This document shows positions 1,134-25,132 of a DNA stretch of 26,172 nucleotides, piece after piece (positions within the stretch are counted from its first letter, which is position 1; every line of letters starts with the position of its first letter). The notes beneath the pieces are model-generated. The model worked only from the letters and a program-made list of their open reading frames with translations. It had not been told where the DNA came from and did not search any database. Origin of the DNA: a virus. The position numbers and the translations under genes are program-made. The DNA lies in IMG/VR virus record IMGVR_UViG_3300048672_000107, positions 1-26,172 of that record; one strand, written 5' to 3'.

Positions 1134-1141
1134 GATAAATA
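1134..1141 (+). promoter_or_regulatory. GATAAATA element, copy 1
   Basis: Exact GATAAATA ending 4 bases before the ATG of the GIY-YIG gene. If it acts like a T4-type late promoter (element at about -13 to -6), transcription would begin at or beside the start codon, giving an essentially leaderless message. No Shine-Dalgarno is present between element and ATG, which fits. Confidence 0.6.
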
Positions 1142-1145
1142 TGAT

Positions 1146-1687: not shown

Positions 1688-1695
1688 GATAAATA
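1688..1695 (+). promoter_or_regulatory. GATAAATA element, copy 2 (replication operon)
   Basis: Exact GATAAATA, 126 bases before the ATG at 1821. A T4-like start site would be near 1701, just before the first arm of the structured leader (1708), so the predicted transcript contains the whole leader. No good sigma70 promoter was found in 1653-1708; the nearest candidate, TTGTGA with GATAAA, shares this element and is weak. Confidence 0.65.
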
Positions 1696-2982: not shown

Positions 2983-4588
2983 GGAATGGAAAAAGATTAC
3001 TAAGGAGGAGAAACTCGACTTAGACTATATGGTTAAGATGAGAGAACTCTATGCACTCCATAAGCACGGATACGAGACAGATGACGATTATATTAAGATT
3101 GCTGATACTGTAACGACTCTGCGTATTAAGTTAGAGAAAGCAGTAGAAGTACTGGAAGAGAAGCAGAGAAAACTTAATGATAGACAACTAAAGCTGAATA
3201 GTTCCTTGCTAGATATTCAGGAAATCATTACTACATATAATATATGGCAGACAGGTAGTGGAAATCTTAGTTGGTACTTGCAAGAGCTTCATGAGAACGA
3301 GTTCGGTGAGCGTGAGTGGACTTGTCTTAAAAAGGAAACCTTACAAGGCCGATTCCCTCAGTTATCGGTTCATATTAGGGGAGGTGCTGGTCAACCAGAT
3401 TATAGTTCCTTTAAAGAGTTTACTGAGATTATGGTTAAGGAAGATAGGATTTTTAATAAACTAGTTCAGAGTTGGACTAAGAAAACTGGTAACGGTACTT
3501 TAAATATTCTATTTCAGGGATTCTGCAAGCCGCAAGAAACAACCGATTATCACTGGATTATAGATGCTGCATTCGAGAGCATTAGCGGTGGTACTGGAGC
3601 AGATAAGAAAGATCACTTAGAGGATATTATATGGGCTAAGTTTTTACACCCAGAGAATATCTTTATTCCAAGCATATTTTTAAACGACGAGGGCTCATCT
3701 GGTAAGGGTGCGTTCGTTGCTAGATTCTTAACTCGCTTATTCGGTGGAGCAGTAGCTGATAACTGTAATATCGAGCACCTAACTGGTAAGTTCAACGGAG
3801 TTATCGCTGGTAAGGCAATCATATTCATAAATGAAACTGCTCGTGATAAAGTGGACGTAGAGAAAGTTAAATCGTTTATTGGTTCGCCAACATTTATGGT
3901 CGAGGAAAAATACGAGAAACCATATGCATGTGATAATACAGGGCTTGTTATTAGTGCAACTAATCAGAAAACCGGTGGTATTACACTAAGCGGTGAGAAT
4001 TCGGATCGTAGATATTCGATCTTTTCTACTAAGACTGATATCTATCAGGTTATTATAAAATACTTCTTAGCTAAGGAAGGTAAGACTCTTACTCGTGCAG
4101 AAGCAACTGATTGGTTAGAGGAAACTGGGCAGCATATTTTACATGACGAGGTAGAGGTCGGTAAGTGGATTGCACATAAACTAATATCTCGCGGTGATAT
4201 TAGATCTGTAAGGGCTATTCATGCAGATGAGTATAAGCACTTGCTCAATCGTCAACGCGGTGCTTGGACACAGACTGTCGAGCAGTTGTTTAATGAGCCC
4301 GGTTTCGATTATATTCGTGCTGCCTTATTAAGAGATTTAGTTCTGCACTATAATAAGGGAGAAGTAATACCTGGTCGTAATAAAATGAATGAGGAAATCG
4401 TTCGTCTATGTAAAGATAAGGGTATTCAGGTAGTTTATCACGAGAATGTAACAATAAAAAATGTTAATGGGTCCATACAGAAGAACTGTTGGAAGGTCGA
4501 TAATGGTAAAGGTACAGTCAACGAGGATGAATCTAAATATGGTGAGATTGGTTCTAAAGGATTCTGGGAATGGAGATGGATCGCCTAA
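2963..4588 (+). CDS. SF3/D5-like replicative helicase (DUF5906-type)
   Basis: 541 residues. The N-terminal 200 contain a charged coiled-coil-like helix (about 30-90). The ATPase core follows: Walker A-like NDEGSSGKGAF near 240-250, Walker B-like KAIIFINETA near 283-292 (ending in NE), an ATN sensor near 331 and NSDRRYSIF near 345-353, a likely arginine finger. This order matches SF3 / poxvirus D5-like helicases that accompany phage PrimPols. The C-terminal 190 residues probably form the D5-type winged-helix region. It should unwind DNA as a hexamer at the fork. The ATG at 2963 overlaps the primase gene by 20 bases, so the two are coupled. A UUCG-loop terminator (4629-4653) closes the operon. 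Confidence 0.85.
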   Translation: MLDVKIKEWKKITKEEKLDLDYMVKMRELYALHKHGYETDDDYIKIADTVTTLRIKLEKAVEVLEEKQRKLNDRQLKLNSSLLDIQEIITTYNIWQTGSGNLSWYLQELHENEFGEREWTCLKKETLQGRFPQLSVHIRGGAGQPDYSSFKEFTEIMVKEDRIFNKLVQSWTKKTGNGTLNILFQGFCKPQETTDYHWIIDAAFESISGGTGADKKDHLEDIIWAKFLHPENIFIPSIFLNDEGSSGKGAFVARFLTRLFGGAVADNCNIEHLTGKFNGVIAGKAIIFINETARDKVDVEKVKSFIGSPTFMVEEKYEKPYACDNTGLVISATNQKTGGITLSGENSDRRYSIFSTKTDIYQVIIKYFLAKEGKTLTRAEATDWLEETGQHILHDEVEVGKWIAHKLISRGDIRSVRAIHADEYKHLLNRQRGAWTQTVEQLFNEPGFDYIRAALLRDLVLHYNKGEVIPGRNKMNEEIVRLCKDKGIQVVYHENVTIKNVNGSIQKNCWKVDNGKGTVNEDESKYGEIGSKGFWEWRWIA

Positions 4589-4628
4589 AAATTCTAGATG
4601 AGTTGAGGTGTAAAAATTCTAGATGAGT
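4586..4628 (+). repeat. 18-bp direct repeat starting at the helicase stop codon
   Basis: TAAAAATTCTAGATGAGT occurs identically at 4586-4603 and 4611-4628 (25-base period). The first copy begins with the helicase TAA. The second leads directly into the terminator. A local tandem duplication or a protein-binding site would both explain it. Confidence 0.85.
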
Positions 4629-4653
4629 AAGGGTTCTTCGGAGCCCTTTCTTA
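4629..4653 (+). terminator. Terminator of the replication operon
   Basis: AAGGGTTC (4629-4636), TTCG loop (4637-4640), GAGCCCTT (4641-4648), then TCTT. An 8-bp stem with one G.U and a stable UUCG tetraloop, 40 bases after the helicase stop. Confidence 0.85.
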
Positions 4654-4847: not shown

Positions 4848-4876
4848 TTGACCGGGTGAGCGATTTATCGCATAAT
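4848..4876 (+). promoter_or_regulatory. Sigma70 promoter P1 with stem-loop spacer
   Basis: TTGACC (4848-4853), 17-base spacer, CATAAT (4871-4876). The spacer holds GCGAT-TT-ATCGC (4860-4871), a 5-bp inverted repeat that touches the -10. It drives the gene at 4909. A second short palindrome (ACTTTAGAAAGT, 4893-4904) covers the weak ribosome-binding region. Confidence 0.75.
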
Positions 4877-5181: not shown

Positions 5182-5210
5182 TAGACAGGGAGTTAATTCT
5201 CCCTTATAAT
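5182..5210 (+). promoter_or_regulatory. Sigma70 promoter P2 with stem-loop spacer
   Basis: TAGACA (5182-5187), 17-base spacer, consensus TATAAT (5205-5210). AGGGAG (5187-5192), TTAATT loop, CTCCCT (5199-5204) fills the spacer. The leader after it reads AAACACTTACACAACACA, shared almost exactly with P3. It starts 3 bases after the stop of the previous gene. Confidence 0.85.
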
Positions 5211-5743: not shown

Positions 5744-5772
5744 TAGACAGGGCTAGAAATAGCCCTTATAAT
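5744..5772 (+). promoter_or_regulatory. Sigma70 promoter P3 with GNRA-loop hairpin spacer
   Basis: TAGACA (5744-5749), 17-base spacer, TATAAT (5767-5772). AGGGCTA (5749-5755), GAAA (5756-5759), TAGCCCT (5760-5766) is a perfect 7-bp stem with a GNRA tetraloop. It begins 3 bases after the previous stop, and its leader is nearly identical to P2's. Confidence 0.88.
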
Positions 5773-6345: not shown

Positions 6346-6573
6346 ATGAAACTCGTATTAATCGCTCTCGCAATAACTCTTACTGGTTGTGCTACGACCA
6401 AACAACCTGATTTGGTCTGGAATCATCGAGGTGGAACTGAAAGTTTCTATGAAGATGTAAGTGAGTGTAAAGCTCGTTCGATCTCAATGGTTGGGGCAAA
6501 TCTCATGAGAATGATGATTCAGGAGCGTCTATGTTTGCAGGGTAAGGGCTGGTGGCTGGAAGAACGGCGATAG
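6346..6573 (+). CDS. Small lipoprotein
   Basis: 75 residues. MKLVLIALAITLTGC is a short signal peptide ending in a lipobox (LTGC), so the mature protein should be lipidated at Cys15 and anchored in a membrane. The mature part is short and soluble, with C39 and C61 (possible disulfide) and a C-terminal GKGWWLEE. The arrangement F-x2-D-x3-C ... C-x-QGKGWW is common in small Gram-negative envelope lipoproteins. Possible roles are superinfection exclusion or envelope modification early in infection. An Rz1 spanin is less likely because no Rz or endolysin gene is adjacent and there is no proline-rich region. The ribosome-binding site (AGAAAG) is modest. Confidence 0.8.
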   Translation: MKLVLIALAITLTGCATTKQPDLVWNHRGGTESFYEDVSECKARSISMVGANLMRMMIQERLCLQGKGWWLEERR

Positions 6574-6590
6574 GTCCACATCTTCATTAA
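6570..6590 (+). repeat. Pre-promoter repeat, copy a
   Basis: ATAGGT-C-CACATCTTCATTAA overlaps the lipoprotein stop and ends 13 bases before the -35 of P4. An identical 21-mer except for one base lies at 6965-6985, also 13 bases before the -35 of P5. Confidence 0.85.
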
Positions 6591-6603
6591 TTTACATAAT
6601 CAC

Positions 6604-6632
6604 TTGACTGCGGTCTGACTCCGCAGTACAAT
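6604..6632 (+). promoter_or_regulatory. Sigma70 promoter P4 with stem-loop spacer
   Basis: TTGACT (6604-6609), 17-base spacer, TACAAT (6627-6632). ACTGCGG (6607-6613), 7-base loop, CCGCAGT (6621-6627) is a 7-bp stem running from the -35 to the first base of the -10. The leader again contains ACACAACACA then TAGGAG. Confidence 0.87.
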
Positions 6633-6662: not shown

Positions 6663-6965
6663 ATGCACACACCAATTATCACGCCGTACGGCTTCTTCAA
6701 AACTATTAATGCGGCTGCAATGCACATTGAGCGGCATCACGCACCGGAGTTTATTAAGCAGCATAGTGAATACTCGTTCCCGTATGACCATATTAAAATG
6801 GGTCACTATGGCAAGGGCACTAACAATTCATCTCGCCATTACATCTATCACGTAATACAGCAACAGATCGGTAGCGCCACATCGGGGCGTCGTCAACCTA
6901 AATCTGGATGGGCACGTATGCCTAAATCGAGTCTGAGTAGCCCAGCCATCACTTGGGTTGCTTAA
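6663..6965 (+). CDS. Hypothetical protein with TPxGxF motif
   Basis: 100 residues from ATG 6663, TAGGAG 6 bases upstream. The N-terminus reads IITPYGFFKTINAAAMHIE, a diverged form of the TPxGxF...AA module also present in the minus-strand gene at 786-1079. GWARM near residue 80 resembles the aromatic strand that closes such modules. The region between is His/Tyr-rich (ERHHAPEF, SRHYIYHVI), as if a longer insert separates the two halves. DNA or RNA binding is an inference. It is a single-gene unit between P4 and P5, flanked by the two 21-bp pre-promoter repeats, and ends in tandem stops (TAA TAG). Confidence 0.7.
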   Translation: MHTPIITPYGFFKTINAAAMHIERHHAPEFIKQHSEYSFPYDHIKMGHYGKGTNNSSRHYIYHVIQQQIGSATSGRRQPKSGWARMPKSSLSSPAITWVA

Positions 6966-6985
6966 TAGGTTCACATCTTCATTAA
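6965..6985 (+). repeat. Pre-promoter repeat, copy b
   Basis: ATAGGT-T-CACATCTTCATTAA, one mismatch from 6570-6590. Together the two copies bracket the gene at 6663-6965. Confidence 0.85.
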
Positions 6986-6991
6986 GTTAAA

Positions 6992-7027
6992 ATAGCCGTT
7001 GACTAAACTCCTAGTTGCGGCTATACT
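6992..7027 (+). promoter_or_regulatory. Sigma70 promoter P5 enclosed by a stem-loop
   Basis: TTGACT (6999-7004), 17-base spacer, TATACT (7022-7027). Here the outer stem ATAGCCG (6992-6998) / CGGCTAT (7018-7024) encloses the -35 and overlaps the -10, with a possible inner ACTA/TAGT stem. The leader differs from P2-P4 and holds its own hairpin, CATAGC (7033-7038) / GCTATG (7045-7050). Confidence 0.78.
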
Positions 7028-7913: not shown

Positions 7914-7921
7914 AATAAATA
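7914..7921 (+). promoter_or_regulatory. AATAAATA variant element (plus strand)
   Basis: AATAAATA followed by ACTGTAAC, closely like the true copy at 16420-16427, which is followed by ACTGCAAC. It lies 25 bases before the ATG at 7947 and is the likely promoter of that gene if the N-ATAAATA form is functional. Confidence 0.45.
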
Positions 7922-7946: not shown

Positions 7947-8249
7947 ATGCCCCACAAAGGTTACACATGGTCCGATGAATACCGCGAACGCTTTTACAGC
8001 AGTGACGCAGTCAAGCAGCACATGGCTAAATTTATCGCTTTAGCGTCGCAAAATAAGCCGAATTCGCAACGAATTAAGATGGCTCAAGCTAAAGTGGGCC
8101 GCAAGTACACAGAGCAGCATAAAACTAATATGTCCGAGGCTCAAAAGTTCCGTCAAGCATTGAAGAAGGATATCGAGGCCACCCACCCCGACCTCGCCTC
8201 GGACGAGGTGTGGGCGTTAGTAAGACAACAGTGCGAGGCCCTAAAGTGA
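7947..8249 (+). CDS. Small basic protein with a NUMOD3-like DNA-binding motif
   Basis: 100 residues from ATG 7947, GAGG 7 bases upstream. Residues about 40-70 (SQRIKMAQAKVGRKYTEQH then KTNMSEAQK) match the NUMOD3 pattern (KMSxAxxGKxxSEExKxKMSEA) found next to homing-endonuclease catalytic domains and in phage DNA-binding proteins. There is no nuclease domain in the gene. The C-terminus is acidic and helical (DLASDEVWALVRQQCEALK). Its TGA overlaps the GTG start of the next gene, so the two are coupled. A DNA-binding or packaging-accessory role near the terminase is plausible by position only. It could also be a degraded relic of a homing endonuclease. Confidence 0.7.
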   Translation: MPHKGYTWSDEYRERFYSSDAVKQHMAKFIALASQNKPNSQRIKMAQAKVGRKYTEQHKTNMSEAQKFRQALKKDIEATHPDLASDEVWALVRQQCEALK

Positions 8250-8473
8250 TACCCATTGGCTCCACAACTGAAAACAGTGATCACACTCACACAATAAGCA
8301 ACCCAGGCACGGGCTTCACTGATGCTGCACCTGATGGCCACATGCACGGTTTAATTAAAGGCTGCTCCACATGCGCTAAGATACGTGCAGCCCTACACGT
8401 CGCTACTCTACCTACTACATTCGTACAAGGTCACTTTCACTTCTTCAACAGTGATTCGCTGAAGCCGCGATAA
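8246..8473 (+). CDS. Small His/Cys-rich protein, probable metal binder
   Basis: 75 residues. I chose GTG at 8246 over the upstream GTG at 8210 because GAGG (8234-8237) lies 8 bases before it and the GTGA overlap with the upstream stop is a classic coupling signal. The sequence has three HxH motifs (HTH near residue 13, HMH near 32, HFH near 62) and one CxxC (CSTC near 40), with few other distinctive features. Phage tail-tip and fibre proteins bind iron or zinc through paired HxH motifs, and small zinc proteins use HxH plus CxxC. Either is possible. No homolog is recognised by eye. The stop codon overlaps a GATAAATA element and a strong terminator follows. Confidence 0.7.
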   Translation: MIPIGSTTENSDHTHTISNPGTGFTDAAPDGHMHGLIKGCSTCAKIRAALHVATLPTTFVQGHFHFFNSDSLKPR

Positions 8474-8476
8474 ATA
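8469..8476 (+). promoter_or_regulatory. GATAAATA element, copy 3
   Basis: Overlaps the TAA of the gene at 8246-8473. The terminator at 8516-8553 follows only about 40 bases later, so a transcript from here would be short unless read through. Confidence 0.55.
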
Positions 8477-8515
8477 CTTTTATAAACTTTACGTCCATTT
8501 TGTTTATAACTCCGT

Positions 8516-8553
8516 GAAACCCACCGTTCGTTGTTGTCGGTGGGTTTCTTTTT
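8516..8553 (+). terminator. Strong terminator before the terminase gene
   Basis: GAAACCCACCG (8516-8526) and CGGTGGGTTTC (8538-8548) form a perfect 11-bp stem with an 11-base loop, followed by TTTTT (8549-8553). Confidence 0.93.
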
Positions 8554-8560
8554 GGCTGTA

Positions 8561-8568
8561 GATAAATA
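8561..8568 (+). promoter_or_regulatory. GATAAATA element, copy 4 (terminase operon)
   Basis: Lies 7 bases after the T-run of the preceding terminator and 42 bases before the small-terminase start, so it is the likely promoter for the packaging and portal genes. Confidence 0.7.
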
Positions 8569-8610
8569 TGTCTAAAGTTTCGGTGAAACAATTATAAAGG
8601 AGACCACGGT

Positions 8611-9153
8611 GTGGCCAGAATAGCAAGTATTAGTGATGTTGCAAGTAGCATCCCAGCAATCCCAGGTGACGATGAACTCCGCGAGCTAGACGAACTCGCT
8701 GCTAATTCCATTGAGAATCAGAATGAGATCGTTAGTTTATTCTCCAAAGAAAAGAATCGTACTATGCATATACGCCGCGGTGATGTGTATAAGCAAGCCG
8801 CAGTGATGACCAACAACAATGTCCTATCACACCTATACGGTATTGATCGTAAGACATTGGTTAAACATTTCGGCCGTGAATTAGAAATGGCTCGCGCATT
8901 TGGACGCCAACGTCTCATGACCCGCTTCTATCACTTAGCCCTCAACAATAATAACCCAGCCTACTTGATATTCGCATTGAAGAACTTTGCCCAAATGAGT
9001 GATGCCGGCTTGACTGAAGACTTAGAAGAAATTGATGAGTCAGTGGAGTTCAAAGTTAAACGTCCAACCAAGCCTGTTGAAAAGATTATTGAAACATCAC
9101 AGAGCTTAGAAGTTAACGATGCCCTAATTGATATTCAGGACCTAGAAGCATAA
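8611..9153 (+). CDS. Terminase small subunit
   Basis: 180 residues from GTG 8611, with AAGGAG 8 bases upstream. This subunit recognises phage DNA and regulates the large subunit during packaging. A helix-turn-helix-like region lies near residues 66-95 (NNNVLSHLYGIDRKTLVKHF), followed by a helical part (ELEMARAFGRQRLMTRFYHL) and NPAYLIFALKNFAQMSD, a combination typical of small terminases (TLxKHxxxEL... and AxxIFxLKN). The C-terminus is acidic and probably contacts the large subunit. Its stop overlaps the start of the large-subunit gene (TAATG), which confirms the pairing. The N-terminal 60 residues are acidic and not recognised. Confidence 0.85.
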   Translation: MARIASISDVASSIPAIPGDDELRELDELAANSIENQNEIVSLFSKEKNRTMHIRRGDVYKQAAVMTNNNVLSHLYGIDRKTLVKHFGRELEMARAFGRQRLMTRFYHLALNNNNPAYLIFALKNFAQMSDAGLTEDLEEIDESVEFKVKRPTKPVEKIIETSQSLEVNDALIDIQDLEA

Positions 9154-10457: not shown

Positions 10458-10459
10458 TC

Positions 10460-11746
10460 ATGGCAAAGAAAATAGACCCAAGTGTAAAACACCCAGACTA
10501 CTCCGAATTGGAACGTAAGTACGACCTAACCGAAGATGCATTCGAAGGCGATGTGTGTGATTTTGTTCCACAACTCGTCAATCAATCTAAGAAAGAATAT
10601 GAAGCCTATGTGAGTCGTGCTGCTTATTTTAACATGGTTGAGAAGACTGTGACAGCGGTATGTGGTGCCCTAACTAGAAAACCATATGTGCTGAACGGTT
10701 ATAGTGAGTTCCCACTTAATGAATACGGCGATGGTACAACATTCCTACAAGCGATGTACAGAGACCTGTTAATCGGTGCTCGCGTTTCTATTTTAGTAGA
10801 TGTCGATGAAAGCGGTGCAAGCAAATTAGTTCCATACGATGCTGATGATATTATTAATTGGTATGGTGATGGTACGAAGCCCGGTGATTTTGTTATGATC
10901 GAACAAGAAGATCTAGTGCAGAACCCTGATAATCCGTATGAACAGATTGAAGTTGAATCGTGGAGAGAACTTTACATAGACGAAATGGGTTTCTATGCTG
11001 TACGAATTTGGCGTAAGCAAGGCAAAGGCCAGTTCTATGCTGAAGAATTAGAGCCAATGCTAGTTAATGGTGGTAGGATTTCTTACATTCCATTGTTCGT
11101 TGTGACACCCTACGATACTACGTGGGAAGTTTATAACCCGCCGCTGTTCACACAAGCGAGTTTGAATATCCAACACTTCAGACAAGCAACGGATTTGGCT
11201 CACTATGCACACTTCATGGCCTTACCGACTTTCACTATTACTGGTGACCTATATACCTACACCGATGATCAAGGTAATCAGACACAAGCACAGATCAAAA
11301 TGGGCTCCACTCAAGAAGCCCTACACCTTACACAAGGCTCTACTGCATCCTATACAGAAGTTAGCGGTGCAAGTTTCTCTATGCTGCAGAACGAAATGAA
11401 GAATACGGAGGAACGTATCTACATAGCGGGATCTAGATTATTATCCTCGAAGAAAGGTATCGAGTCCGCTGAAGCCCTACAACTCCGTTCAGGCAGCGAG
11501 AGTGCAGTTTTGGACACAATGGTACACTCAATGAGTTCCAGTTTGAATGCTGCTTTAGAATTATGCGGTATGATTGATAATGTTCCTGGTGCAATGATCG
11601 AACTTAATAAGGATTTCACTGCTGCTACTATGGATCCAACGTCTACTAAGGCACTTTTGGAACTTTATACTGCTGGAACTATCACTTTAGAACAGCTATT
11701 GAGCGAATTATATGCAGGTGAAGTGGTGGCACCTCCTGCTCAGTGA
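10460..11746 (+). CDS. Portal protein (DUF4055-type)
   Basis: 428 residues from ATG 10460 (MAKKIDPSVKHPDYSELE). A longer frame from 10406 is unlikely because it would sit inside terL, and AGGA precedes the 10460 start. The portal is the dodecameric ring at one capsid vertex through which DNA enters. YFNMVEKTVTAVCGALTRKP near residues 54-74 and MYRDLLIGARVSILVDV near 98-114 match the DUF4055 portal family, and the C-terminal helical part (IYIAGSRLLSS, SAEALQLRSGSESAVLDTMV) is as expected for clip and crown regions. The position directly after terL supports the call. Its stop overlaps a GATAAATA element. Confidence 0.9.
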   Translation: MAKKIDPSVKHPDYSELERKYDLTEDAFEGDVCDFVPQLVNQSKKEYEAYVSRAAYFNMVEKTVTAVCGALTRKPYVLNGYSEFPLNEYGDGTTFLQAMYRDLLIGARVSILVDVDESGASKLVPYDADDIINWYGDGTKPGDFVMIEQEDLVQNPDNPYEQIEVESWRELYIDEMGFYAVRIWRKQGKGQFYAEELEPMLVNGGRISYIPLFVVTPYDTTWEVYNPPLFTQASLNIQHFRQATDLAHYAHFMALPTFTITGDLYTYTDDQGNQTQAQIKMGSTQEALHLTQGSTASYTEVSGASFSMLQNEMKNTEERIYIAGSRLLSSKKGIESAEALQLRSGSESAVLDTMVHSMSSSLNAALELCGMIDNVPGAMIELNKDFTAATMDPTSTKALLELYTAGTITLEQLLSELYAGEVVAPPAQ

Positions 11747-11752
11747 TAAATA
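11745..11752 (+). promoter_or_regulatory. GATAAATA element, copy 5 (scaffold-capsid)
   Basis: Overlaps the portal stop codon and ends 29 bases before the scaffold ATG. A dedicated promoter would raise capsid and scaffold output above that of terminase and portal. Confidence 0.7.
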
Positions 11753-11781
11753 AAATTTAATATTCCGGAGGAATAATATAA

Positions 11782-13437: not shown

Positions 13438-13445
13438 GATAAATA
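13438..13445 (+). promoter_or_regulatory. GATAAATA element, copy 6 (connector-tail genes)
   Basis: Its last base is the first base of the next terminator stem. A T4-like start near 13451 would fall inside the left arm, so transcripts from this element could not form the full stem, while read-through from the capsid gene could. Confidence 0.65.
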
Positions 13446-13474
13446 AAGGGTGCCTGGTGCACCCTTTCATCTTT
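13445..13474 (+). terminator. Terminator after the major capsid gene
   Basis: AAAGGGTGC (13445-13453), CTGGT loop, GCACCCTTT (13459-13467), then CATCTTT. A perfect 9-bp stem; the terminal T-run is interrupted. Confidence 0.85.
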
Positions 13475-14905: not shown

Positions 14906-15351
14906 TGTTAGCAGCAAATCAACAAGTAAGAACCTTTAGTGAAGAGCGCGAAGCAATAGAAACTCGCTTCTCTAATATGTTCGATACATATATTACACCT
15001 GTTCAATACGGAAATTTAACGATATTAAAGAAAGGTAATGTCTCGTTACCTACTCCCTACAAAGGAGTTCAGTTTGTAAGGCTTAATCTCATTGGCGGTA
15101 CAAGCGAACAGAGAGAAGTTGGTAGAAACATTACTACAATTAATGGTTTTATTAACATAAATGTCTTTACAGCACAGGATAGTGGTTCCCAACAAGCAAG
15201 AACTATTGTAGACGAAATATTCCCTATCTTTAATGCAGTAGTTTTCAACGGTATTACCACTGGTCCAGCCACAGTGCGTGAGTTACCCCCTAACAACGGC
15301 TGGTATAACATAAATATTTCGATTCCTTACGTCTGGTACCACTGCGTCTAA
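14905..15351 (+). CDS. Tail terminator protein (gpU-like)
   Basis: 148 residues. Its ATG at 14905 overlaps the previous TAA by one base. The order helix (FSEEREAIETRFSNMF) - strand - long loop (LPTPYKGVQFVRLNLIGG) - strand (GFININVFTAQDSGSQQ) - helix (ARTIVDEIFPIF) - strands (WYNINISIPYVWYH) is that of tail terminators of the gpU / DUF4128 type, which cap the finished tail and bind the connector. The place between the gp10-like protein and the tail tube is canonical. Confidence 0.82.
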   Translation: MLAANQQVRTFSEEREAIETRFSNMFDTYITPVQYGNLTILKKGNVSLPTPYKGVQFVRLNLIGGTSEQREVGRNITTINGFININVFTAQDSGSQQARTIVDEIFPIFNAVVFNGITTGPATVRELPPNNGWYNINISIPYVWYHCV

Positions 15352-15357
15352 GCGTGA

Positions 15358-15365
15358 GATAAATA
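15358..15365 (+). promoter_or_regulatory. GATAAATA element, copy 7 (tail tube)
   Basis: In the 41-base gap before the major tail protein, ending 27 bases before its ATG. It would provide separate, high expression of the tube subunit. Confidence 0.7.
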
Positions 15366-15392
15366 ACTAATACATAAACTGGAGATTAACCT

Positions 15393-16355: not shown

Positions 16356-16378
16356 TTCTCCTCGGCTAAGGCAGAATG

Positions 16379-16412
16379 AGCCCCATAGTAGAAATGCTTT
16401 GGGGCTTTCTCT
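16379..16412 (+). terminator. Terminator after the tail-tube gene
   Basis: AGCCCCA (16379-16385) pairs with TGGGGCT (16400-16406), 14-base loop, then TTCTCTT. A 7-bp GC-rich stem with a broken T-run, 24 bases after the stop. Confidence 0.8.
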
Positions 16413-16419
16413 TGGCGGC

Positions 16420-16427
16420 GATAAATA
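16420..16427 (+). promoter_or_regulatory. GATAAATA element, copy 8 (chaperone-tape measure)
   Basis: Follows the terminator by 7 bases and precedes the chaperone ATG by 33. The same terminator-element spacing is seen at 8549-8568. Confidence 0.7.
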
Positions 16428-16460
16428 ACTGCAACCGAGAGGTTAGAACAAGGAACCAAA

Positions 16461-16871
16461 ATGAACATTAATGATGTATTTAAAAAGTATGATCCAAAGA
16501 GCGAATGCGTGTGGAAAGAGTGGAATGGAGCAAAGTTCTTTATTGCTCCACAAGGCAATAAGATGCAGCAAAAAGAAATGCTTGCCCAATTTACCTTGCA
16601 AGAAGCAAATGATTTTGAAACTAAAGGCCCAATGGTCTTTGGTGCAATGATGGCAGGTGAAGCACTTAAGAAGATTTATAATCTCTATTCATCTACCATT
16701 ATTTTTGATTGGGAATTAGAGAATGATGAAGGGAAGAAAATCCCATTTACTGCTAAGAAATGTGCAGAGATGATGAGCGAGCACTTAGACTTCGGTAACT
16801 GGGTCTTACTTGCATCGCAGGAAGTTGCTAGAGAGAAAGAAGCAAAGGAATCTGAAATAGAAAAAAAATAA
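16461..16871 (+). CDS. Tail assembly chaperone, short form (gpG-like)
   Basis: 136 residues from ATG 16461, AAGGA upstream. This class binds the tape measure and recruits tube subunits. The fold cannot be read from motifs, but size, acid/base-rich C-terminus (VAREKEAKESEIEKK) and position between tail tube and tape measure are diagnostic. It ends right after a run of eight A (16861-16868) at which ribosomes can slip to make the extended form ending at 17170. In siphophages the short form is made in excess. Confidence 0.88.
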   Translation: MNINDVFKKYDPKSECVWKEWNGAKFFIAPQGNKMQQKEMLAQFTLQEANDFETKGPMVFGAMMAGEALKKIYNLYSSTIIFDWELENDEGKKIPFTAKKCAEMMSEHLDFGNWVLLASQEVAREKEAKESEIEKK

Positions 16872-17170
16872 TCGCCTATGTGCGTTGGGAGACTCGTGTA
16901 GCTGAAGCAGCAAGCGAGTCTTTTAGGAAGAACAACCCTCCACCAGAGATCAGTTCTCCTATTAGATTATTTGTTCAGTCTTTCTTTACTTTAAGTTCCG
17001 AGCGCAGCATAGGCCAAGGTGGAATGAGTTTGATACCCTATTCGAAGATAATAGAATACGGTGAGTGGATTGGGTACAAGGATATTACACAGTTTATGAA
17101 GATTATACAACAAGTTGACCAAACTTATGTGAGTGATTTTTATAAGAAGATGGAACAGAATAGGAAGTAA
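16461..17170 (+). CDS. Tail assembly chaperone, -1 frameshift fusion (gpGT-like)
   Basis: Continuing in the -1 frame across AAAAAAAA gives about 236 residues. The extension reads IIAYVRWETRVAEAASESF and goes on through a proline-rich link (NNPPPEISSPI) to a helical end (FMKIIQQVDQTYVSDFYKKM). The downstream part (frame open around 16880-17170) has no Shine-Dalgarno or good start, and its frame is -1 relative to the upstream gene, as required. This is the conserved G/GT arrangement of lambda-like and most other siphophages. The fusion protein contacts the tape measure through the short form and the tube subunit through the extension. Confidence 0.85.
16861..16868 (+). other. -1 ribosomal slippery site (A8)
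   Basis: Eight A residues followed by TAA in frame 0. A-AAA-AAA is a known bacterial slippery heptamer, and the zero-frame stop sits right after it. I saw no strong downstream hairpin; slippage on poly-A does not always need one. Confidence 0.85.
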
Positions 17171-17173
17171 GAT

Positions 17174-20100
17174 ATGACAAAAGAAGTATTTCAATTAGAA
17201 GTCCAGGTAAACACAAACCCTGCTCTTACTGGCCTAAGCGCACTAGATAAGAAACTTAAAGATGTTAAGGACTCTGCTGATAAGATCGGTAAAGGTAATC
17301 CTTTAGGCGGTCTGAATACTTCTGTTAAGACACTAACTGCTTCTTTTGCTGGGCTGGGCTCTATATTAGGCGGACTTGCTATCGGTAAGGTCGCTACCGA
17401 AGCTATAACTGCAATGGTTGCCTATGAGCGACTTGAAACAGTATTAGGTACTGTTACAGGAAGCATTACAAATGCAGCCGATGCTATGAAGTTATTAAAG
17501 GATGTATCTCAGGCTACACCTTTTTCAATTAATCAACTTGGTGATGCCTATATTAAACTTAAATCATCGGGTATTGAGCCTACTGCTGAAAAGTTAAAAC
17601 TATTCAGCGATATCGCAAGTGTAACAACAGATAAAGTTGGTGCATTAACAGCTATTACAGATCTTTACGCTCGTACTACCGCTGGTGGCCTAGGATTAGA
17701 AGAACTTAATAGACTTGCTGAACGTGGTATTCCTGTTTACGATATCTTGGCAAAACGTATTGGCGTTAATCGTTTAGAGATATCTGAACTTGGTAAGTCA
17801 GCACAAGGCTCAGCAATTATTATTCGTCAATTAGAAGCCGGCCTAAAAGAATCATTTAGCGGTGCTAGTGCAAAGAACATTAATACACTTGGTGGCCAGT
17901 TCGATATTTTCCAAAAGAATTTAGAAAATCTAGCAACTACTGCTGGTAAGTCCGGGGCGACTGCAGGACTAACAGACTTAACAAAAACTATTAATGAATT
18001 GACAGTTGCTATGCAACCTATTGCAGCCTTAGTTGGCCGTGGGGTCGGCGATGTACTAAGCGGCTTAACTACTGTAATTAAAGAATTTACAACTAATACC
18101 TTAAAGTCTATTGCTACTATATTAATCTTTATAGGCACATTAAGAACTATTACTACCGTAATAGATCTATTTTCATTACATCTGGCAGTTGTAGGCATTA
18201 AGATGGGTATTCTCTCCTCGACAATCCCGTTATTAACATCTAATGCAAATAAGCTAACATTAGCAGTAGTAGGTACTGTAAGTATTCTTAGAACATTTAT
18301 TACTGCGATAACAGGCTCGTTTGCAGCCTTAGTCGCAGGTAATATCGGCCAAGTTGTACAATTATTTAGAGCATTAGGTGCAGCATTACTTGCTTCTCCA
18401 ATCACTGGGTTTGTTGTTCGTATGTTAGCACTTGCTGGTGTTCTGAACCCGATCGGTGCAACTATTACAGCTATCGTAGGCACCTTATTCCTATTCAGAA
18501 ATTCAGTAATAGAAGTTGGTGGCAGTACAGCCTCTGTCGCTGAAATACTATGGTATGCGTTTAAAAGAATTGGTGATGCAATAGTATGGCCATTCGAACA
18601 GATCGGTAAACTTGTTTCTAAATTAGGCGAACTCATTATGATGGTTCCCGGTGCTGCGGCTGCAGCCGATGCATTAGGTAAAGCATGGGAGATTGCTGGT
18701 AAGGCAGCATCAAGCGCATGGGAGTGGACAAAAGAAGTAACTGTTGGTGGCATCATCAAGAATATAGATGCAGAAAGAAGTGCAGAACAAAGTGCTAAGT
18801 CACGTGCTGAATTTAGAAAATCAGAATCAGAAGATGCTGAGAAGATTCGTTCAGCAACCGAAGATACTGCCGCAGCAGATAGAAAAGCAGCAGAAGATCT
18901 TAAGACAGGTCGTGCTGCTACATTAATTAAGATCTTGGATAGTTTACGTCAAGAGTCGTCCTTACTAGGTAAGACAAAGCAAGATGCTGAACAACTTACT
19001 AAAGAATATGAGTTGCAAAATTCTATTAAGCAAAAGCTATTAACATCTAATCCTACTATTTCGCCTGCAGATTTAGAATCTAAATCTAAATTAACCGGCG
19101 ATGAGAAGGCCTCTATAGCTAGAGAAATCTCTAAGAAGTATCAGCAAGAAAGTATTGCATTAATGAGTGTCATGAACACTGCAAATAACTTAGAAATCTC
19201 TTTGCTATCTAAGTCTAACAACGAACGCGATCGTGCTGTAAAATTAGAAGAAATTAGATTACAATTAGGGATGAAGAGTGCTGACTGGTCTAAAGTAAAA
19301 GCCGGATATGAAGCTGAGATCCTACGTTTACAAGAAGCACAGATTACTGAATCTCTTAATAAAAATCTAGAAGGAATTGCTAAAGAAACTGAGTATTTAA
19401 AACTCGGTAATGATGAACGCGAGAAGCGAATTGCTTTAGATAAGGCAGCAGCAGATGCGGGCTTTAAAGATGCAGCAGAACTTTCTAAGAAAAGACCTCA
19501 AGCAGCATCGTTAATTTCGGATGCTGTCGGTATTAAGAATCAAACTGTTATCGATGTTGCTGGTCAAGCACAAATACGTGATCTTAAAGAAGAGTCAGCC
19601 CTATTAGCAATCACAAATGACCTAGATCGTGAACGTGCTAAGAAGAAGAATGACATCTATAAAGCTATCGACCCAGAAGGTCGTGGTAAGAAGATCAACG
19701 AAATGCAAAGAAACGAAATCGAAGCATTGCTAAACACAATCGAAGCACAAGAAAAGTTATTGGAAGTTAATAAGAAAATCGATGATGCTTTCGCAACTCT
19801 AGGTGATGCAGCATCTAATTGGGCATTAGGCACCGAAGGTGCTATTAAGCGTGTTAGACTTGCTTTGCTTCAACTTGCAACACTTGCAGCATTTAAATAT
19901 TTTGCTGGCGGTATGCCTACAGGAGCAGCAGGCAGTTTCTTAACTGGTGTTCTAGGTGGATTAAGTGGAGCAAGAGCAGAAGGTGGTCCAGTCGATGCAG
20001 GCAAATCATATTTGGTTGGTGAAAAGCGCCCAGAAGTATTTGTTCCTACAACAAATGGTTATATTGTACCTAATACAGCGATGATGAATACCTCTACTGG

Positions 20101-20263
20101 TGCTACTCATGTAACAATGAGCCCGAATCTAATCATCCAGGGCTCTGTAACAGGACAGACAGAATTAGAAAATATGTTCGATCAGTTTGCACAAGCAATG
20201 GCACAAGAGACTCAGAACTTTGTTATTAGTCAACGTGGTCAGAATGGAATTTTAGCGAGGTAA
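17174..20263 (+). CDS. Tape measure protein
   Basis: 1029 residues from ATG 17174, AGGAAG upstream. It sets tail length and is carried inside the tube. Residues about 80-210 match the tape-measure N-terminal domain: AYERLETVLGTVTGSITNA, then LKDVSQATPFSINQLGDAYI and LNRLAERGIPVYDILAKRIG. Strongly hydrophobic, probably membrane-active segments lie near 305-390 (SIATILIFIGTLRTITTVI, ITAITGSFAALVAG) and 410-445 (LALAGVLNPIGATITAIVG). Long charged coiled-coil stretches cover about 540-900. The C-terminus (GGPVDAGKSYLVGEKRPEVF) is the conserved tape-measure ending. At about 0.15 nm per residue the tail would be near 150 nm. The large minus-strand frame inside it is a shadow. Confidence 0.96.
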   Translation: MTKEVFQLEVQVNTNPALTGLSALDKKLKDVKDSADKIGKGNPLGGLNTSVKTLTASFAGLGSILGGLAIGKVATEAITAMVAYERLETVLGTVTGSITNAADAMKLLKDVSQATPFSINQLGDAYIKLKSSGIEPTAEKLKLFSDIASVTTDKVGALTAITDLYARTTAGGLGLEELNRLAERGIPVYDILAKRIGVNRLEISELGKSAQGSAIIIRQLEAGLKESFSGASAKNINTLGGQFDIFQKNLENLATTAGKSGATAGLTDLTKTINELTVAMQPIAALVGRGVGDVLSGLTTVIKEFTTNTLKSIATILIFIGTLRTITTVIDLFSLHLAVVGIKMGILSSTIPLLTSNANKLTLAVVGTVSILRTFITAITGSFAALVAGNIGQVVQLFRALGAALLASPITGFVVRMLALAGVLNPIGATITAIVGTLFLFRNSVIEVGGSTASVAEILWYAFKRIGDAIVWPFEQIGKLVSKLGELIMMVPGAAAAADALGKAWEIAGKAASSAWEWTKEVTVGGIIKNIDAERSAEQSAKSRAEFRKSESEDAEKIRSATEDTAAADRKAAEDLKTGRAATLIKILDSLRQESSLLGKTKQDAEQLTKEYELQNSIKQKLLTSNPTISPADLESKSKLTGDEKASIAREISKKYQQESIALMSVMNTANNLEISLLSKSNNERDRAVKLEEIRLQLGMKSADWSKVKAGYEAEILRLQEAQITESLNKNLEGIAKETEYLKLGNDEREKRIALDKAAADAGFKDAAELSKKRPQAASLISDAVGIKNQTVIDVAGQAQIRDLKEESALLAITNDLDRERAKKKNDIYKAIDPEGRGKKINEMQRNEIEALLNTIEAQEKLLEVNKKIDDAFATLGDAASNWALGTEGAIKRVRLALLQLATLAAFKYFAGGMPTGAAGSFLTGVLGGLSGARAEGGPVDAGKSYLVGEKRPEVFVPTTNGYIVPNTAMMNTSTGATHVTMSPNLIIQGSVTGQTELENMFDQFAQAMAQETQNFVISQRGQNGILAR

Positions 20264-20265
20264 TT

Positions 20266-20619
20266 ATGGCAGTTACATATCCGACAATTATATACGGGCA
20301 AGGAAGCAGAATAGAAACTGCTCCACGTCTAATCGAAACAGGCTACGGCGATGGCTATCAGCAAGTTATTCCAGATGGTATTAACTACCTACCACGTAGC
20401 GGAAACTTAGAGCATCCGTTGATTGATAATGCTACAGCAGCAACCTTACTTGCTTTTCTAAGAGCAAATAGTGGTGGACAAATTGTTGCTATTAAAAATA
20501 TGATGGAAGATCCAACAGGTGCTACAACACTCAATGTAAGAATTAAGAGTTGGTCTAAGCAACAAGACGGTATTACAAATACCTATAATGTGAATTTTGT
20601 AGAGGCGTTTGGATCATAA
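20266..20619 (+). CDS. Minor tail protein, gpM-like
   Basis: 117 residues from ATG 20266, GAGG upstream, 2 bases after the tape-measure stop. The sequence RLIETGYGDGYQQVIPDGIN at residues 21-40 and the later LLAFLRANSGGQIVAIKNM, with a final beta part (YNVNFVEAFG), match the lambda gpM / Phage_min_tail family, a tail-tip ring protein at the distal end of the tube. The next gene starts at its stop (TAATG). Confidence 0.9.
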   Translation: MAVTYPTIIYGQGSRIETAPRLIETGYGDGYQQVIPDGINYLPRSGNLEHPLIDNATAATLLAFLRANSGGQIVAIKNMMEDPTGATTLNVRIKSWSKQQDGITNTYNVNFVEAFGS

Positions 20620-21416
20620 TGGCAACACAACAATATCAATTAACGGTTGATCAATTAACAACCTTAATGACTATAGATTTCTCTACATGCGTGGGATTTA
20701 CTCCGACTGGTACAACTTTTCTTAGATGGACTGCATATAGAAATGGCTCTAATTCAGTTTTCTATGATGGTAATGAATACAAGTATGTGGGTTTTGAAGC
20801 ACAAGGTTTCCGTAGTGAACTAAATGGCAAAGTACCATCTCCATCAATAACTTTTGATAAGGCAAGTTTATTTAATCGTAGTTCATATATGGCACTGTGG
20901 GATCAATACATAGCCCAGACAGGTGAAGATTACTTTGATTGGCGTGGTGCTAAGGTTCAGATATTTAGAACAATCAATTTAGATACTGCACAGCAACTAA
21001 ACATGCAAGAGTATGTAGTTTCTCAAGTTAATAAGGTTACTTCATCAACCATCGAAGTACAATTAAGTATTGGTTTGGGAATAGATAGATTAAGTTCTCA
21101 ATCTATTCAAGCTTTATCCACAAATCGTTGCTCACGTAAGTATCGTACTTGGAACGGATCTAGTTTTGATTATACAAATGAAGATGCTGGTGGTTGCCCG
21201 TATGGCAATCCTACAACGGTAAGTAATTGGACAGCAGTACCAAGTTTCGGTCTAAAGTATTACACAAATATGGATGCCGCACTTGCAGATGCAAATAAGA
21301 ATTTAGACAAGTGCAGTTATTCAGTAAAGGGTTGTTCTCTTAGATTCGACCCAGCAAATAACGGTCTTGCATTACCATTCAAAGGCTTATACGCCGCTAC
21401 TAAAACAGGACAATAA
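20619..21416 (+). CDS. Minor tail protein, gpL-like, with probable Fe-S cluster
   Basis: 265 residues starting at the overlap TAATG at 20619. It contains an N-terminal domain of gpL type (LNGKVPSPSITFDKASLFN) and a C-terminal part with cysteines in NRCSRKYR (near 170), GGCPYG (near 192) and the pair DKCSYSVKGCSLRF (near 232 and 239). In lambda gpL the C-terminal domain holds four cysteines in this order that bind a [4Fe-4S] cluster, so the same is inferred here. It acts at the tail tip, between gpM-like ring and gpJ-like hub. Its stop overlaps the gpJ-like start. Confidence 0.88.
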   Translation: MATQQYQLTVDQLTTLMTIDFSTCVGFTPTGTTFLRWTAYRNGSNSVFYDGNEYKYVGFEAQGFRSELNGKVPSPSITFDKASLFNRSSYMALWDQYIAQTGEDYFDWRGAKVQIFRTINLDTAQQLNMQEYVVSQVNKVTSSTIEVQLSIGLGIDRLSSQSIQALSTNRCSRKYRTWNGSSFDYTNEDAGGCPYGNPTTVSNWTAVPSFGLKYYTNMDAALADANKNLDKCSYSVKGCSLRFDPANNGLALPFKGLYAATKTGQ

Positions 21417-24400
21417 TGGCAAATATTCAAAAATCAGTTTCAAGTGCTTTTGCCAATACACGCGATGCTCGCATAGATTATCATGTTGTAGAAAAAGGAT
21501 CAGCAAGTCTTATCACAGGCATCTATGATCAAACAGATCCATTTACACAGGGATTCTATCGTAAGCCAGATATCACTGAAGTTGGCAGTTCAGCTAAGGC
21601 TGGATTGATATACGGCGAAGTTATGATCACGCCTTATGTAAGAGACGTAGGTGTAGAGAGTTCCGTAAATGATGCAGCAAGTATCTTAAAGACCTATCGC
21701 TTCATTACAGGTGAAGGCCAGAACTCAGGTATCCCAGTTGGGCCAAATGGTTCTCCTTTAGAAAATGTTTATATCCGTGATGCAAATGGTATTCCACAAC
21801 CAGTTGTTGACTCAGCAGGTAAACCATCTATGGGTAATATTGTTCTAGCAAGTGCTTTAGGTGCTGCTATTACTTCTGCTCCAAAGATATGGGATGCTAT
21901 TAAAGGTACATCTACTGCTAAGACACCTAATGTGGATCCAGTAACAGGAAAGACAATTCCATCGGCTACAGAACAGGCTGCAACGAAGGCGGCTGCACAA
22001 ATCCCCTTGGGCAAACTTACTGACGTAAATGATAGCGAAAAAGGCGATAATTACGTGCTTACTTACGATGCTAAGAGCAGTATGTGGGTTGCGAAACCAA
22101 TTAATACTGCGTTCAGTAATGCAATAGGCCCGACTACTGTTACAGGCGGTAGCGGAGGCGCAGGCGGAGCAGGCGGTAATGGCGGAGCAGGCGGTAAGGG
22201 TGGTGATGGCGGTAGTGCAGGCGGTACAGTTCCGGAACCTACTACTTGCTATCCATCAACAAGTTTTGTTGAATATCCACATCCAGCACCTCCACAGAAA
22301 TCTAAGTATGGCATGATTCGTTTACCTACTTTAACTAATACTGCGAATAACGAATATACTCAACAAATTAATGTGCTAGGTACAAACGGTCTAGAATTAC
22401 ATTTCTTTAACAACGGATGTGGTAAGAAGGCCATTTGGTCAGTGGCAGCAGGTGATACTGTTTCGTGCCCACCAGGTGGTGCAGTTGATTGCTTTATTGA
22501 TCCTAATAAAGCAACTGTAGAAAAGCCAGCTACCGCAGGATCATCGGTGATCTATTATGAAGCTGCTACTGCTTCTATTAAAATCTGTCTAACTGCAAAT
22601 ATTTGCGGTGCTGAATATCTAATCTATAGCGCAACAGTTAATGAAACTGCCTTAAGCAAAACAAGTTATACATTTACGGCTCCTATTATCTATTGGGCTG
22701 ATACTAAGATTGCTGCTTTATTAGCAAAGTATCCAGGCCAGGTATGGAATACCGCTAATCCAAATGTTAAACTCTATTTGTCCCGTACAGATGTGGAAGG
22801 AAGCGAATATGATCTATACTTTGAAGGCTATAAGCGTCTAATTGGAGATACTTATTATAAGGGTGTTACCCCACCTATTACTTCTATCCCAGGGACAAAT
22901 ACCCCACAACCACATCCTGTTGTAGTAAAAGCAGATGATGGCAAATTTCCTGATAATATCCCAGGTGGCGGCGGTATGGGTGCACCTAGTTGCCCAGAAC
23001 CAGCAGTTATCCCAGGAACTTTACCTACAGCAGGTGAGCCAGGAACACCAGGTACTAGCGGCGGAGCAGGCGGAACAGCAACACCAGGCTCAACCGGTAC
23101 TATCGATGTGGCACCAGCGCCTAGTTTACCGAGCATAGAAATTTATAGCCCATGCGCTCGTCAATACGGCACACAAACAAGCCCACCGGCTTTCGATTCT
23201 GTACAGTTACCTGCCCTACTATTAGATTCAGGTATTGCTGACCCTACAGTAGATGTGTTCTATGAAGTTCAAGTCGGCTTAGGTACTTTTGCTCTAAGCG
23301 GTTCTATTCCAGGAACAGTTACAGCTACTTTCGGAAGTCAGACAATGGGTCTAGTTGGGCCACAAGCAGACGTGATGACTGCATCTAGTTTCATTAAGCT
23401 ATTCCCTGATAATAGTAGCCAAGGCGATATTCACTACACGATTACTATTACAAACTCCGAAGGTTCTAATGCAGGTGATGCTTGTTTATTAGTTCCTAGT
23501 CAGATTGTTATTAGTGAAAGCCAATCGTCTGTTGCTAAGGTTTGTATCGATGCTTCATCTACAGGCGGTACAGGTAAGGTAATGGTTACTTTCGATAATA
23601 AGACAAGAGATCTTACTAGCGGGTATGTGGCATATAATACTAACCCGACTATCACAGCGGCAGCAATGGCATCGAATATCAATGCAAATATTGCTTTTGC
23701 TAATGCTTATACACCAGGTAGTACCAACTGGTTACCACTATTTGTTGCTACTGCAAGTGGTGATACTGTAACAATTACAGCACCAGCAAGTCGCGGTGCA
23801 GAGTTTAACGGCATAGAACTTTCTACAGCAGTAACCTCCGGGTTTGTATTTGGTAACTGCGTTGGTACATTCTTGGGTGGTGTAACAAAAACAATTACTG
23901 ACTTCCTAAAAGTTAATCCTAAGTGGTCTGCACTTGCTGATATTCTTTACGGAATTGCTGGTAATGTATTAGGTGCAGTTGCATTGAATATGATTATGGG
24001 CGATGTGGGCGAAGAACAATTAAGTGTTCCAGCCGATTTAGCAGTTGATGTGGTATTCTTATATCGTGGTAGAGTAATATCAGTCCCTACTGAATATAAT
24101 GCTACAGCAAGAACAGGTCACCCAACCAGTTATGCTACTTGGGGTGGTACATGGAAGAAAGAATGGACACAAAATCCTGCGTGGATTGTCTATGACTTCA
24201 TCACTAATAAGAAATATGGGTTAGGTAATGAAATTAATTTAACTTCTGCCCAACTGCAATCTCTATTAGAAGATCTATTCTTAATCGGGCACTACTGCGA
24301 TGAATTAGTTACAACTAATGGAGTAACTGGTGTTCGTTTCTCTACTAATACAGTTATTATGGATGGTACTAAGTTACAGATCTTACAACAATTATGCTCT

Positions 24401-25132
24401 GTGTTCTTTGGTTCGGTTGTATTCCATAATGGTGGTATTCGTATCGCCTATGATAGATTGAATACAACTACAAAACTATTAGTTAATCAAGCTAATGCAG
24501 GTAGTTTCGATAAGACACTAAGTTCTAGTAAGAATTTTATTAATAAAGTTAGATTGTCTTATATCGAACCTGCTAATTTCTATACAGAAGAAGTTGTGAT
24601 TGCAGAAGATACAGTCGCAGTAGCAACCTATGGAGAGCGAGTTGCTGATATGATTAGTTTCGGCTGTACAGATGTGAATCAAGCAATGCGTTATGCAGAG
24701 TGGATTCTAAATACAGAAATAGAAAATAGCATAAGTATTTCTTATACTGGCGGTCTAGATCACTATAACTTATTGCCAGGTGATTTAGTTGAGTTCTATG
24801 ATAGCAACGAAAGAAATATTCGTAGAGCAGGTCGTATTGTTAGTCAAACAGGCGTCTATGTGATACTAGATACACCTATTGCTTCAGTTACTGGTGATTA
24901 CTTCAGTCTTACTTTAGCTAATGGAGCAATTCACCAAACTACGATTGCTGCTATTAGTGGAACGAATGTAACTTTAACTGCTGCGCCACCAAGTGCTGCT
25001 AATCCAAATGCAACATTCATTTCTGCAAGTGCTTCATTGGGTCGTAGATATTATAAGGTTATCAAAGTCGATGAAACTTCTAATAGCAAGTTCAACATCA
25101 CATTGCAGCTTTACTCGACAGATAAATATTGA
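21416..25132 (+). CDS. Tail tip / central fibre protein, gpJ-like, with glycine-rich insertions
   Basis: 1238 residues from ATG 21416 (TAATG overlap). Residues about 865-1238 carry the gpJ-type core: VFLYRGRVISVPTEYNATA, then AWIVYDFITNKKYGLGNEI and later LLPGDLVEFYDSNERNIRRA with RRYYKVIKVDE. This part should form the tip hub and bind or approach the receptor. The N-terminal 200 residues are divergent. LTDVNDSEKGDNYVLTYDAK (about 202-221) resembles a short tail-fibre motif. Collagen-like Gly-rich tracts lie near 242-269 (GGAGGAGGNGG) and 528-562 (GEPGTPGTSGG). Domain order is unusual: more than 800 residues precede the conserved core. The gpK and gpI-like genes that separate L and J in lambda are absent. 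Confidence 0.85.
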   Translation: MANIQKSVSSAFANTRDARIDYHVVEKGSASLITGIYDQTDPFTQGFYRKPDITEVGSSAKAGLIYGEVMITPYVRDVGVESSVNDAASILKTYRFITGEGQNSGIPVGPNGSPLENVYIRDANGIPQPVVDSAGKPSMGNIVLASALGAAITSAPKIWDAIKGTSTAKTPNVDPVTGKTIPSATEQAATKAAAQIPLGKLTDVNDSEKGDNYVLTYDAKSSMWVAKPINTAFSNAIGPTTVTGGSGGAGGAGGNGGAGGKGGDGGSAGGTVPEPTTCYPSTSFVEYPHPAPPQKSKYGMIRLPTLTNTANNEYTQQINVLGTNGLELHFFNNGCGKKAIWSVAAGDTVSCPPGGAVDCFIDPNKATVEKPATAGSSVIYYEAATASIKICLTANICGAEYLIYSATVNETALSKTSYTFTAPIIYWADTKIAALLAKYPGQVWNTANPNVKLYLSRTDVEGSEYDLYFEGYKRLIGDTYYKGVTPPITSIPGTNTPQPHPVVVKADDGKFPDNIPGGGGMGAPSCPEPAVIPGTLPTAGEPGTPGTSGGAGGTATPGSTGTIDVAPAPSLPSIEIYSPCARQYGTQTSPPAFDSVQLPALLLDSGIADPTVDVFYEVQVGLGTFALSGSIPGTVTATFGSQTMGLVGPQADVMTASSFIKLFPDNSSQGDIHYTITITNSEGSNAGDACLLVPSQIVISESQSSVAKVCIDASSTGGTGKVMVTFDNKTRDLTSGYVAYNTNPTITAAAMASNINANIAFANAYTPGSTNWLPLFVATASGDTVTITAPASRGAEFNGIELSTAVTSGFVFGNCVGTFLGGVTKTITDFLKVNPKWSALADILYGIAGNVLGAVALNMIMGDVGEEQLSVPADLAVDVVFLYRGRVISVPTEYNATARTGHPTSYATWGGTWKKEWTQNPAWIVYDFITNKKYGLGNEINLTSAQLQSLLEDLFLIGHYCDELVTTNGVTGVRFSTNTVIMDGTKLQILQQLCSVFFGSVVFHNGGIRIAYDRLNTTTKLLVNQANAGSFDKTLSSSKNFINKVRLSYIEPANFYTEEVVIAEDTVAVATYGERVADMISFGCTDVNQAMRYAEWILNTEIENSISISYTGGLDHYNLLPGDLVEFYDSNERNIRRAGRIVSQTGVYVILDTPIASVTGDYFSLTLANGAIHQTTIAAISGTNVTLTAAPPSAANPNATFISASASLGRRYYKVIKVDETSNSKFNITLQLYSTDKY
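25121..25128 (+). promoter_or_regulatory. GATAAATA element, copy 9 (distal tail gene)
   Basis: Inside the last codons of the gpJ-like gene (Asp-Lys-Tyr-stop), 17 bases before the next ATG. If functional, the coding sequence of the gpJ C-terminus is constrained to carry a promoter. Confidence 0.55.

Follow-up and report, generated by a model that had tools for sequence, protein, structure and literature searches.

A conserved TAAATA box ahead of late gene units in a small siphovirus family resembles a T4-type late promoter

A short box, GATAAATA, placed ahead of the late gene units of a siphovirus contig is a genuine and conserved feature that has a function of some kind, and it is best read, with a probability of roughly 0.7, as a T4-like late promoter of a small siphovirus family that consists of a -10 element alone. 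The DNA analysed here, hereafter the window, is an entire linear IMG/VR contig of 26,172 nucleotides (IMGVR_UViG_3300048672_000107) and is a fragment of its phage genome. It carries a siphovirus late block from terS through J, with primase/helicase-like genes and small early genes to the left of this block (Table 1). The reading is based on the motif, its strand, its positions, its conservation, the lack of a -35 element, the hairpin context and the split between early and late promoters, all of which are observed; from these we infer a promoter role, a start point, and host core RNA polymerase with a specificity factor as the reader of the box. Descriptions so far assign T4-type late promoters to T4-related phages, which have gp55, gp33 and gp45.

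The window matches GATAAATA exactly at nine places, always on the plus and never on the minus strand, and every coordinate given in a preliminary description of this DNA is exact. That description had estimated about one chance copy per strand; the first-order expectation is 1.1 on the plus and 0.7 on the minus strand, and none of 100 dinucleotide shuffles reached nine copies (mean 1.68, both strands summed). Each of the nine copies either falls in an intergenic gap or overlaps the 3' end of the preceding gene (its last codons or its stop codon), much as had been described, and the distance from the end of the box to the next start codon is 17–134 bases, the copy at 1134 being the exception with 4 bases. 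A tenth site, AATAAATA at 7914, was absent from the earlier list; its slot is conserved, with GGTAAATA in the relative G001 and GATAAATA in G002. The best match to TTGACA averages 3.4/6 at the boxes compared with 3.15 at random places, which bears out the earlier remark that no common -35 element lies upstream, and no conserved -35 was found in four genomes, each examined separately. A ribosome-binding site is located at least 6 bases 3' of the box throughout, two apparent zero distances being pattern artefacts within a hairpin, and so there is space for initiation at a start 5–7 bases past the box; this spacing is compatible with the T4-type start, which lies about one helical turn from its box.

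Table 1. Boxes, hairpins, sigma-70-like early promoters and genes of the window.
Feature	Position	Strand	Remarks
GATAAATA box	1134..1141	+	4 bases before predicted start of GIY-YIG endonuclease gene (1146)
GATAAATA box	1688..1695	+	upstream of 80-aa ORF (1779) preceding primase-like gene
Primase/helicase-like genes	2002, 2963		left of late block, with small early genes
Sigma-70-like early promoter	4848..4876	+	10/12
Sigma-70-like early promoter	5182..5210	+	TAGACA-17-TATAAT, 11/12
Sigma-70-like early promoter	5744..5772	+	TAGACA-17-TATAAT, 11/12
Sigma-70-like early promoter	6604..6632	+	10/12
Sigma-70-like early promoter	6999..7027	+	10/12
AATAAATA site	7914..7921	+	25 bases before 100-aa NUMOD3-like gene (7947)
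GATAAATA box	8469..8476	+	over stop codon of 87-aa gene; distal of two pre-terS boxes
Terminator-like hairpin	8516..8548	+	separates the two terS boxes; stem of 10-11 bp followed by TTTTT
GATAAATA box	8561..8568	+	12 bases past terminator, 42 bases before terS
terS	8611		assigned by position; G001 homolog matches terminase small subunit weakly
terL	9153		
Portal	10406		
GATAAATA box	11745..11752	+	over portal stop codon, 29 bases before scaffold
Scaffold	11782		
Major capsid	12517		connector genes after
GATAAATA box	13438..13445	+	3' of major capsid gene, abutting hairpin
8-bp hairpin	13446..13466	+	starts directly after box; terminator-like, covarying in relatives
GATAAATA box	15358..15365	+	27 bases before tail tube gene
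Tail tube	15393		
Terminator-like hairpin	16380..16405	+	3' of tail tube gene
GATAAATA box	16420..16427	+	14 bases past terminator, 33 bases before tail chaperone gene
Tail chaperone	16461		
Tape measure	17174		
J (J-like) gene	21416		
GATAAATA box	25121..25128	+	over last codons of J-like gene, 17 bases before next tail gene (25146)

The box at 1134 is the weakest member of the set, since no ortholog was found in the relatives and only 4 bases separate it from the predicted start codon; were it a promoter that starts transcription at the T4 distance, the GIY-YIG gene would be expressed from an mRNA with no leader. A strong sigma-70 match on the minus strand (TTGACA-17-TACAAT, 11/12, 1093–1121) stands back to back with this box.

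Relatives were collected from IMG/VR by terminase, portal and tail-tube searches and comprise a close set with 62–92% protein identity and a few distant members. All are metagenomic contigs or fragments except G009, the name of which suggests an isolate genome. The preliminary description had named relatives with the same gene order but no octamer as the outcome contrary to its claim; instead, the TAAATA core is retained in 49 of the 49 orthologous gaps tested (seven slots, 12 related contigs, up to 11 genomes), a count in which the scaffold gap of L013, taken as the nearest copy, and the post-J gap of G009 are loosely assigned. The box is kept before the scaffold gene (10/10 genomes, G007 and G009 among them), after the major capsid gene (11/11), before the tail tube gene (11/11), before the chaperone gene (7/7), before terS and after J, and the double pre-terS site is also present in G001, at 12796/12915. 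Per-slot product probabilities take the relatives as independent and hence are not p-values. Positions 3–8 (TAAATA) are invariant across the slots and only positions 1 and 2 vary, the prefixes in the family being GA, GG, GC, CA, AA, AC and AG. Therefore, the T4-late-like box ahead of late units stands as first described, but the conserved unit is the TAAATA core and not the exact octamer.

In the close set, GATAAATA copies occur exclusively on the coding strand, and the corresponding gaps of L009 and L055 carry GGTAAATA or GCTAAATA. The conservation extends to about 26–45% protein identity and to genomes of 51–55% GC, in which chance copies are rare. The coding strand of G009 (33.5 kb, 54.5% GC; portal 46% and terminase 40% identical) has 14 copies of TAAATA and the opposite strand has two, against 1.3 and 1.1 expected, and about nine of the 14 precede a gene start, with the prefixes AG, AC, AA, CA, GA and CT. 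In G007 (32 kb, 51% GC; portal 42% and terminase 28% identical), CATAAATA is among the most over-represented octamers, with 11 copies on one strand and none on the other (0.2 expected), and L018, a 4.2 kb fragment of 60% GC, has three ATAAATA copies where none is expected. The shuffles, the slot conservation and the GC-rich relatives together rule out chance or AT-richness as the source of the boxes. The trait appears confined, since the motif is absent from 12 isolate phages that have a distant homolog of the terminase, portal, capsid or tube, some of them scanned in part (Effie, 73, Xp15, PaMx74, Kintu, phiPSA1, V45iii, Barton, R5C, Pan1, Pkon1 and Eidolon); it is also missing from most IMG/VR relatives with 30% terminase identity. 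The collection searched holds no close isolate phage of the window, and DNA-level searches gave no close isolate for either the window or G009. The one hit of a genome search for the host, a weak terminase match on a contig of a Bacteroidota MAG, comes without the motif pattern and does not point to a host.

The box shares with the late promoters of T4 (Straboviridae) a length of eight bases, the TAAATA core, the lack of a -35 element and a position ahead of late genes. The T4 late promoter is TATAAATA, with A at -13 in nine sites, and those of Aeh1 have a/gC at -13/-12 (PMC2988020); the cyanophages S-PM2 and Syn9 use NATAAATA, of which the ATAAATA core with a free first base covers both CATAAATA of G007 and GATAAATA of the window (PMC2984593). 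The two leading bases that vary in the siphovirus box are thus also the variable ones in T4-family late promoters (PMC2988020, PMC2984593). The siphovirus box begins with G or C at most sites, whereas that of T4 begins with T, and the siphoviruses are small (about 35 kb) and lack a detectable gp55 homolog, whereas such a homolog is readily identifiable in every T4-related genome (PMC2988020). T4 also has the gp33 co-activator and the gp45 clamp, neither of which was noticed when the siphovirus ORFs were scanned by inspection, and cyanomyoviruses likewise differ from the siphoviruses in carrying g55, g33 and g45 homologs. AT-richness downstream of the box, a T4 late trait, is not decisive, since it is present in the two AT-rich genomes G000 and G001 (71–72% compared with 59–61% genome-wide) and absent from the GC-richer G007 (48%) and G009 (43%). 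The Escherichia myovirus rV5 sets a precedent: TggTAaAAtA, a motif of T4-late-like appearance, precedes its late genes, and the phage is reported to lack homologs of gp45, gp33 and gp55; the rV5 motif is looser and different, and it was described there from 8 copies in one genome of an unrelated large myovirus (PMC3606486). Our literature searches tied GATAAATA to comparable phage work only in a PhagePromoter list and found no report of it as a late system in siphoviruses.

Terminator-like hairpins are found 7–60 bases 5' (nearly all 7–24) or 0–2 bases 3' of 22 of 74 boxes, and the same context is found at 2.7% of random positions. The 8-bp hairpin after the capsid gene lies immediately 3' of the box in ten relatives including G009, and every pair of its stem varies with compensation, with no non-standard pair in nine distinct stems. 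The late promoter of these phages would be NNTAAATA (GATAAATA in the window phage), which would work like that of T4 as a lone -10-type box without a -35 element, placed just past a terminator or just ahead of a hairpin, and transcription would start about 5–7 bases past the box to give a short leader that leads into the ribosome-binding site of the late gene block. On the hairpin side, a start about 6 bases past the box would fall within the 5' arm, and so the new transcript could not fold into the terminator at which transcription from upstream stops, which may explain the strict adjacency of box and hairpin.

The same hairpins bear on the explanation that the box acts as an RNA element, in which AU-rich single-stranded GAUAAAUA in a long late transcript would be cut by an RNase such as RNase E and the hairpins would protect the ends. 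The frequent position of the box beside hairpins, directly abutting one after the capsid gene, fits this explanation, and processed 5' ends have in the past been difficult to separate from T4 late starts (a caution given in PMC2988020). However, many boxes lie 7–24 bases past a strong terminator, where little RNA is left to cut, others come right ahead of a ribosome-binding site and lack a hairpin, and the late block lacks sigma-70 promoters that would make the long transcript. In addition, the six-letter core is fixed and its surroundings are not, whereas RNase E cleavage sites are loose in sequence. An RNA element is therefore an unlikely origin of the box.

A sigma-70 match of 10–11/12 lies just upstream of each of five early genes, whereas the late block (8400–26172) is depleted of such matches, with 25 compared with 45.8 ± 6.0 in shuffles. 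The boxes do not have the sigma-70 layout (a TTGACA-like -35, 15–19 bases and a TATAAT-like -10), and TAAATA fits TATAAT poorly; a sigma-70-like match of 9/12 lies near the 1688 box, at 1630–1658. Under the late promoter reading, the early genes would be transcribed by unmodified host polymerase from ordinary sigma-70 promoters, and a specificity factor made or recruited later, either a diverged phage sigma or a host sigma, would turn the polymerase to the box. Alternatively, the box could be the -10 element for host sigma-70 polymerase, or for another host sigma, aided by an upstream phage activator as in a MotA-type middle promoter. This would agree with the failure to find a phage sigma in seven records and with three G007 copies (those at 17853 and 20713, in coding-strand coordinates, and one on the minus strand), which have a TTTACA/TTTGCA-17-TATAAA-like arrangement typical of sigma-70. 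It is nevertheless improbable, because no genome has a conserved upstream box or -35, TAAATA lacks the final T of the sigma-70 -10, most sites have G or C as their first base, and the same core is used by phages of 39–60% GC, the hosts of which are probably different. The repeated element of G007, TTTACA/TTTGCA-17-NATAAA(TA), resembles sigma-70 early promoters that share letters of TATAAATA.

Another DNA-binding protein site, such as a repressor operator or a packaging or recombination site, or a boundary sequence is a very improbable identity for the box. Its placement at unit boundaries is very regular, and other phages carry repeated boundary words such as stoperators and start-associated sequences. 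In mycobacteriophages, the latter are brief conserved words that stand before many genes and keep an almost constant spacing to the start codon, whereas the siphovirus box-to-start distance ranges from about 17 to more than 100 bases. Strict orientation to the genes, the position upstream of the ribosome-binding site and the sigma-70 depletion of the block argue against such a site, which would also have no need for the TAAATA core used by T4-family promoters. Host sigma-28 (-10 GCCGATAA) is ruled out since its GCC is not conserved, and an archaeal TATA box is ruled out since the ribosome-binding site is too near downstream and the early promoters are of the bacterial sigma-70 type.

The preliminary description had suggested a search for a gp55-like sigma. 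The T4 gp55 family profile (phrog_234), which recognises T4 gp55 as a positive control, a second late-sigma family (phrog_12791) and sigma-70 region 2 (PF04542) gave nothing in seven records, including the 34.9 kb relative G001, which appears near-complete as both of its contig ends lie in tail-fibre-like sequence. The single-subunit RNA polymerase profile PF00940 matched none of the seven records and was silent on its control too, and the G001 ORF list has no unassigned ORF big enough for such an enzyme; none of the unassigned G001 proteins, which are small, is annotated as a sigma. Outside the structural block, no gene, and hence no regulator, is common to G000, G001, G007 and G009. These results suggest a phage protein that is new or has diverged, a factor that differs from subgroup to subgroup, or one supplied by the host. 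The short -10-only promoter originally proposed thus keeps its T4-family-like box, its lack of a -35 and its place at late units, and a promoter role is probable, but the searches of the seven records gave no late sigma that would support the phage-altered polymerase proposed with it. It is possible, at slightly less than even odds, that TAAATA is read in these siphoviruses by a late specificity factor, phage-encoded or taken over from the host, with no sequence relationship to gp55; this would be an independent or very diverged minimal switch with no need for the T4 replisome clamp.

If a family of small siphoviruses uses this core box and has no detectable gp55, then either gp55-like sigmas have diverged and spread far beyond what sequence searches reveal, or another protein has converged on the same box. 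In genomes of about 35 kb, a minimal late switch could be sought among a handful of unknown genes, and the box would offer a simple rule for late operon prediction in such phages. The 100-aa gene at 7947, present in G000, G001 and G002 and preceded by a TAAATA box of its own, is not claimed as the reading factor, the sole family hint being a NUMOD3-like homing-endonuclease stretch. Its protein (window 7947–8249, L048:10951–11259, L050:10869–11177) is 53–56% conserved and encoded just upstream of the terminase region, and its AlphaFold model is all-helical (pLDDT 78, pTM 0.38) with no significant PDB match. YDxxA-like motifs (YDLRAGVFGVLA and YDISACAPTIL), by eye similar to polymerase motif A, are present in L050:8175–9863 (G002) and L075:7950–9050 (G009). 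The G009 protein has no Pfam, PHROG or NCBIfam match and the G002 protein no NCBIfam match, and G002 has no BLAST match to the primase/helicase genes of the window.

Three of the five early promoter spacers contain an inverted repeat of 5–7 bp, at 5187–5204, 5749–5766 and 6609–6625, and 4.4% of random 20-mers have one. The repeats differ in sequence (AGGGAG..CTCCCT, AGGGCTA..TAGCCCT and TGCGG..CCGCA) and may be operators, or else terminators of the preceding gene that have become part of the promoter. Near-duplicate short stretches (AATAGGTYCACATCTTCATTAAKTTA; AAAAATTCTAGATGAGT, twice) also lie between early genes, at 6570–6600 and 6965–6995 and at 4580–4630.
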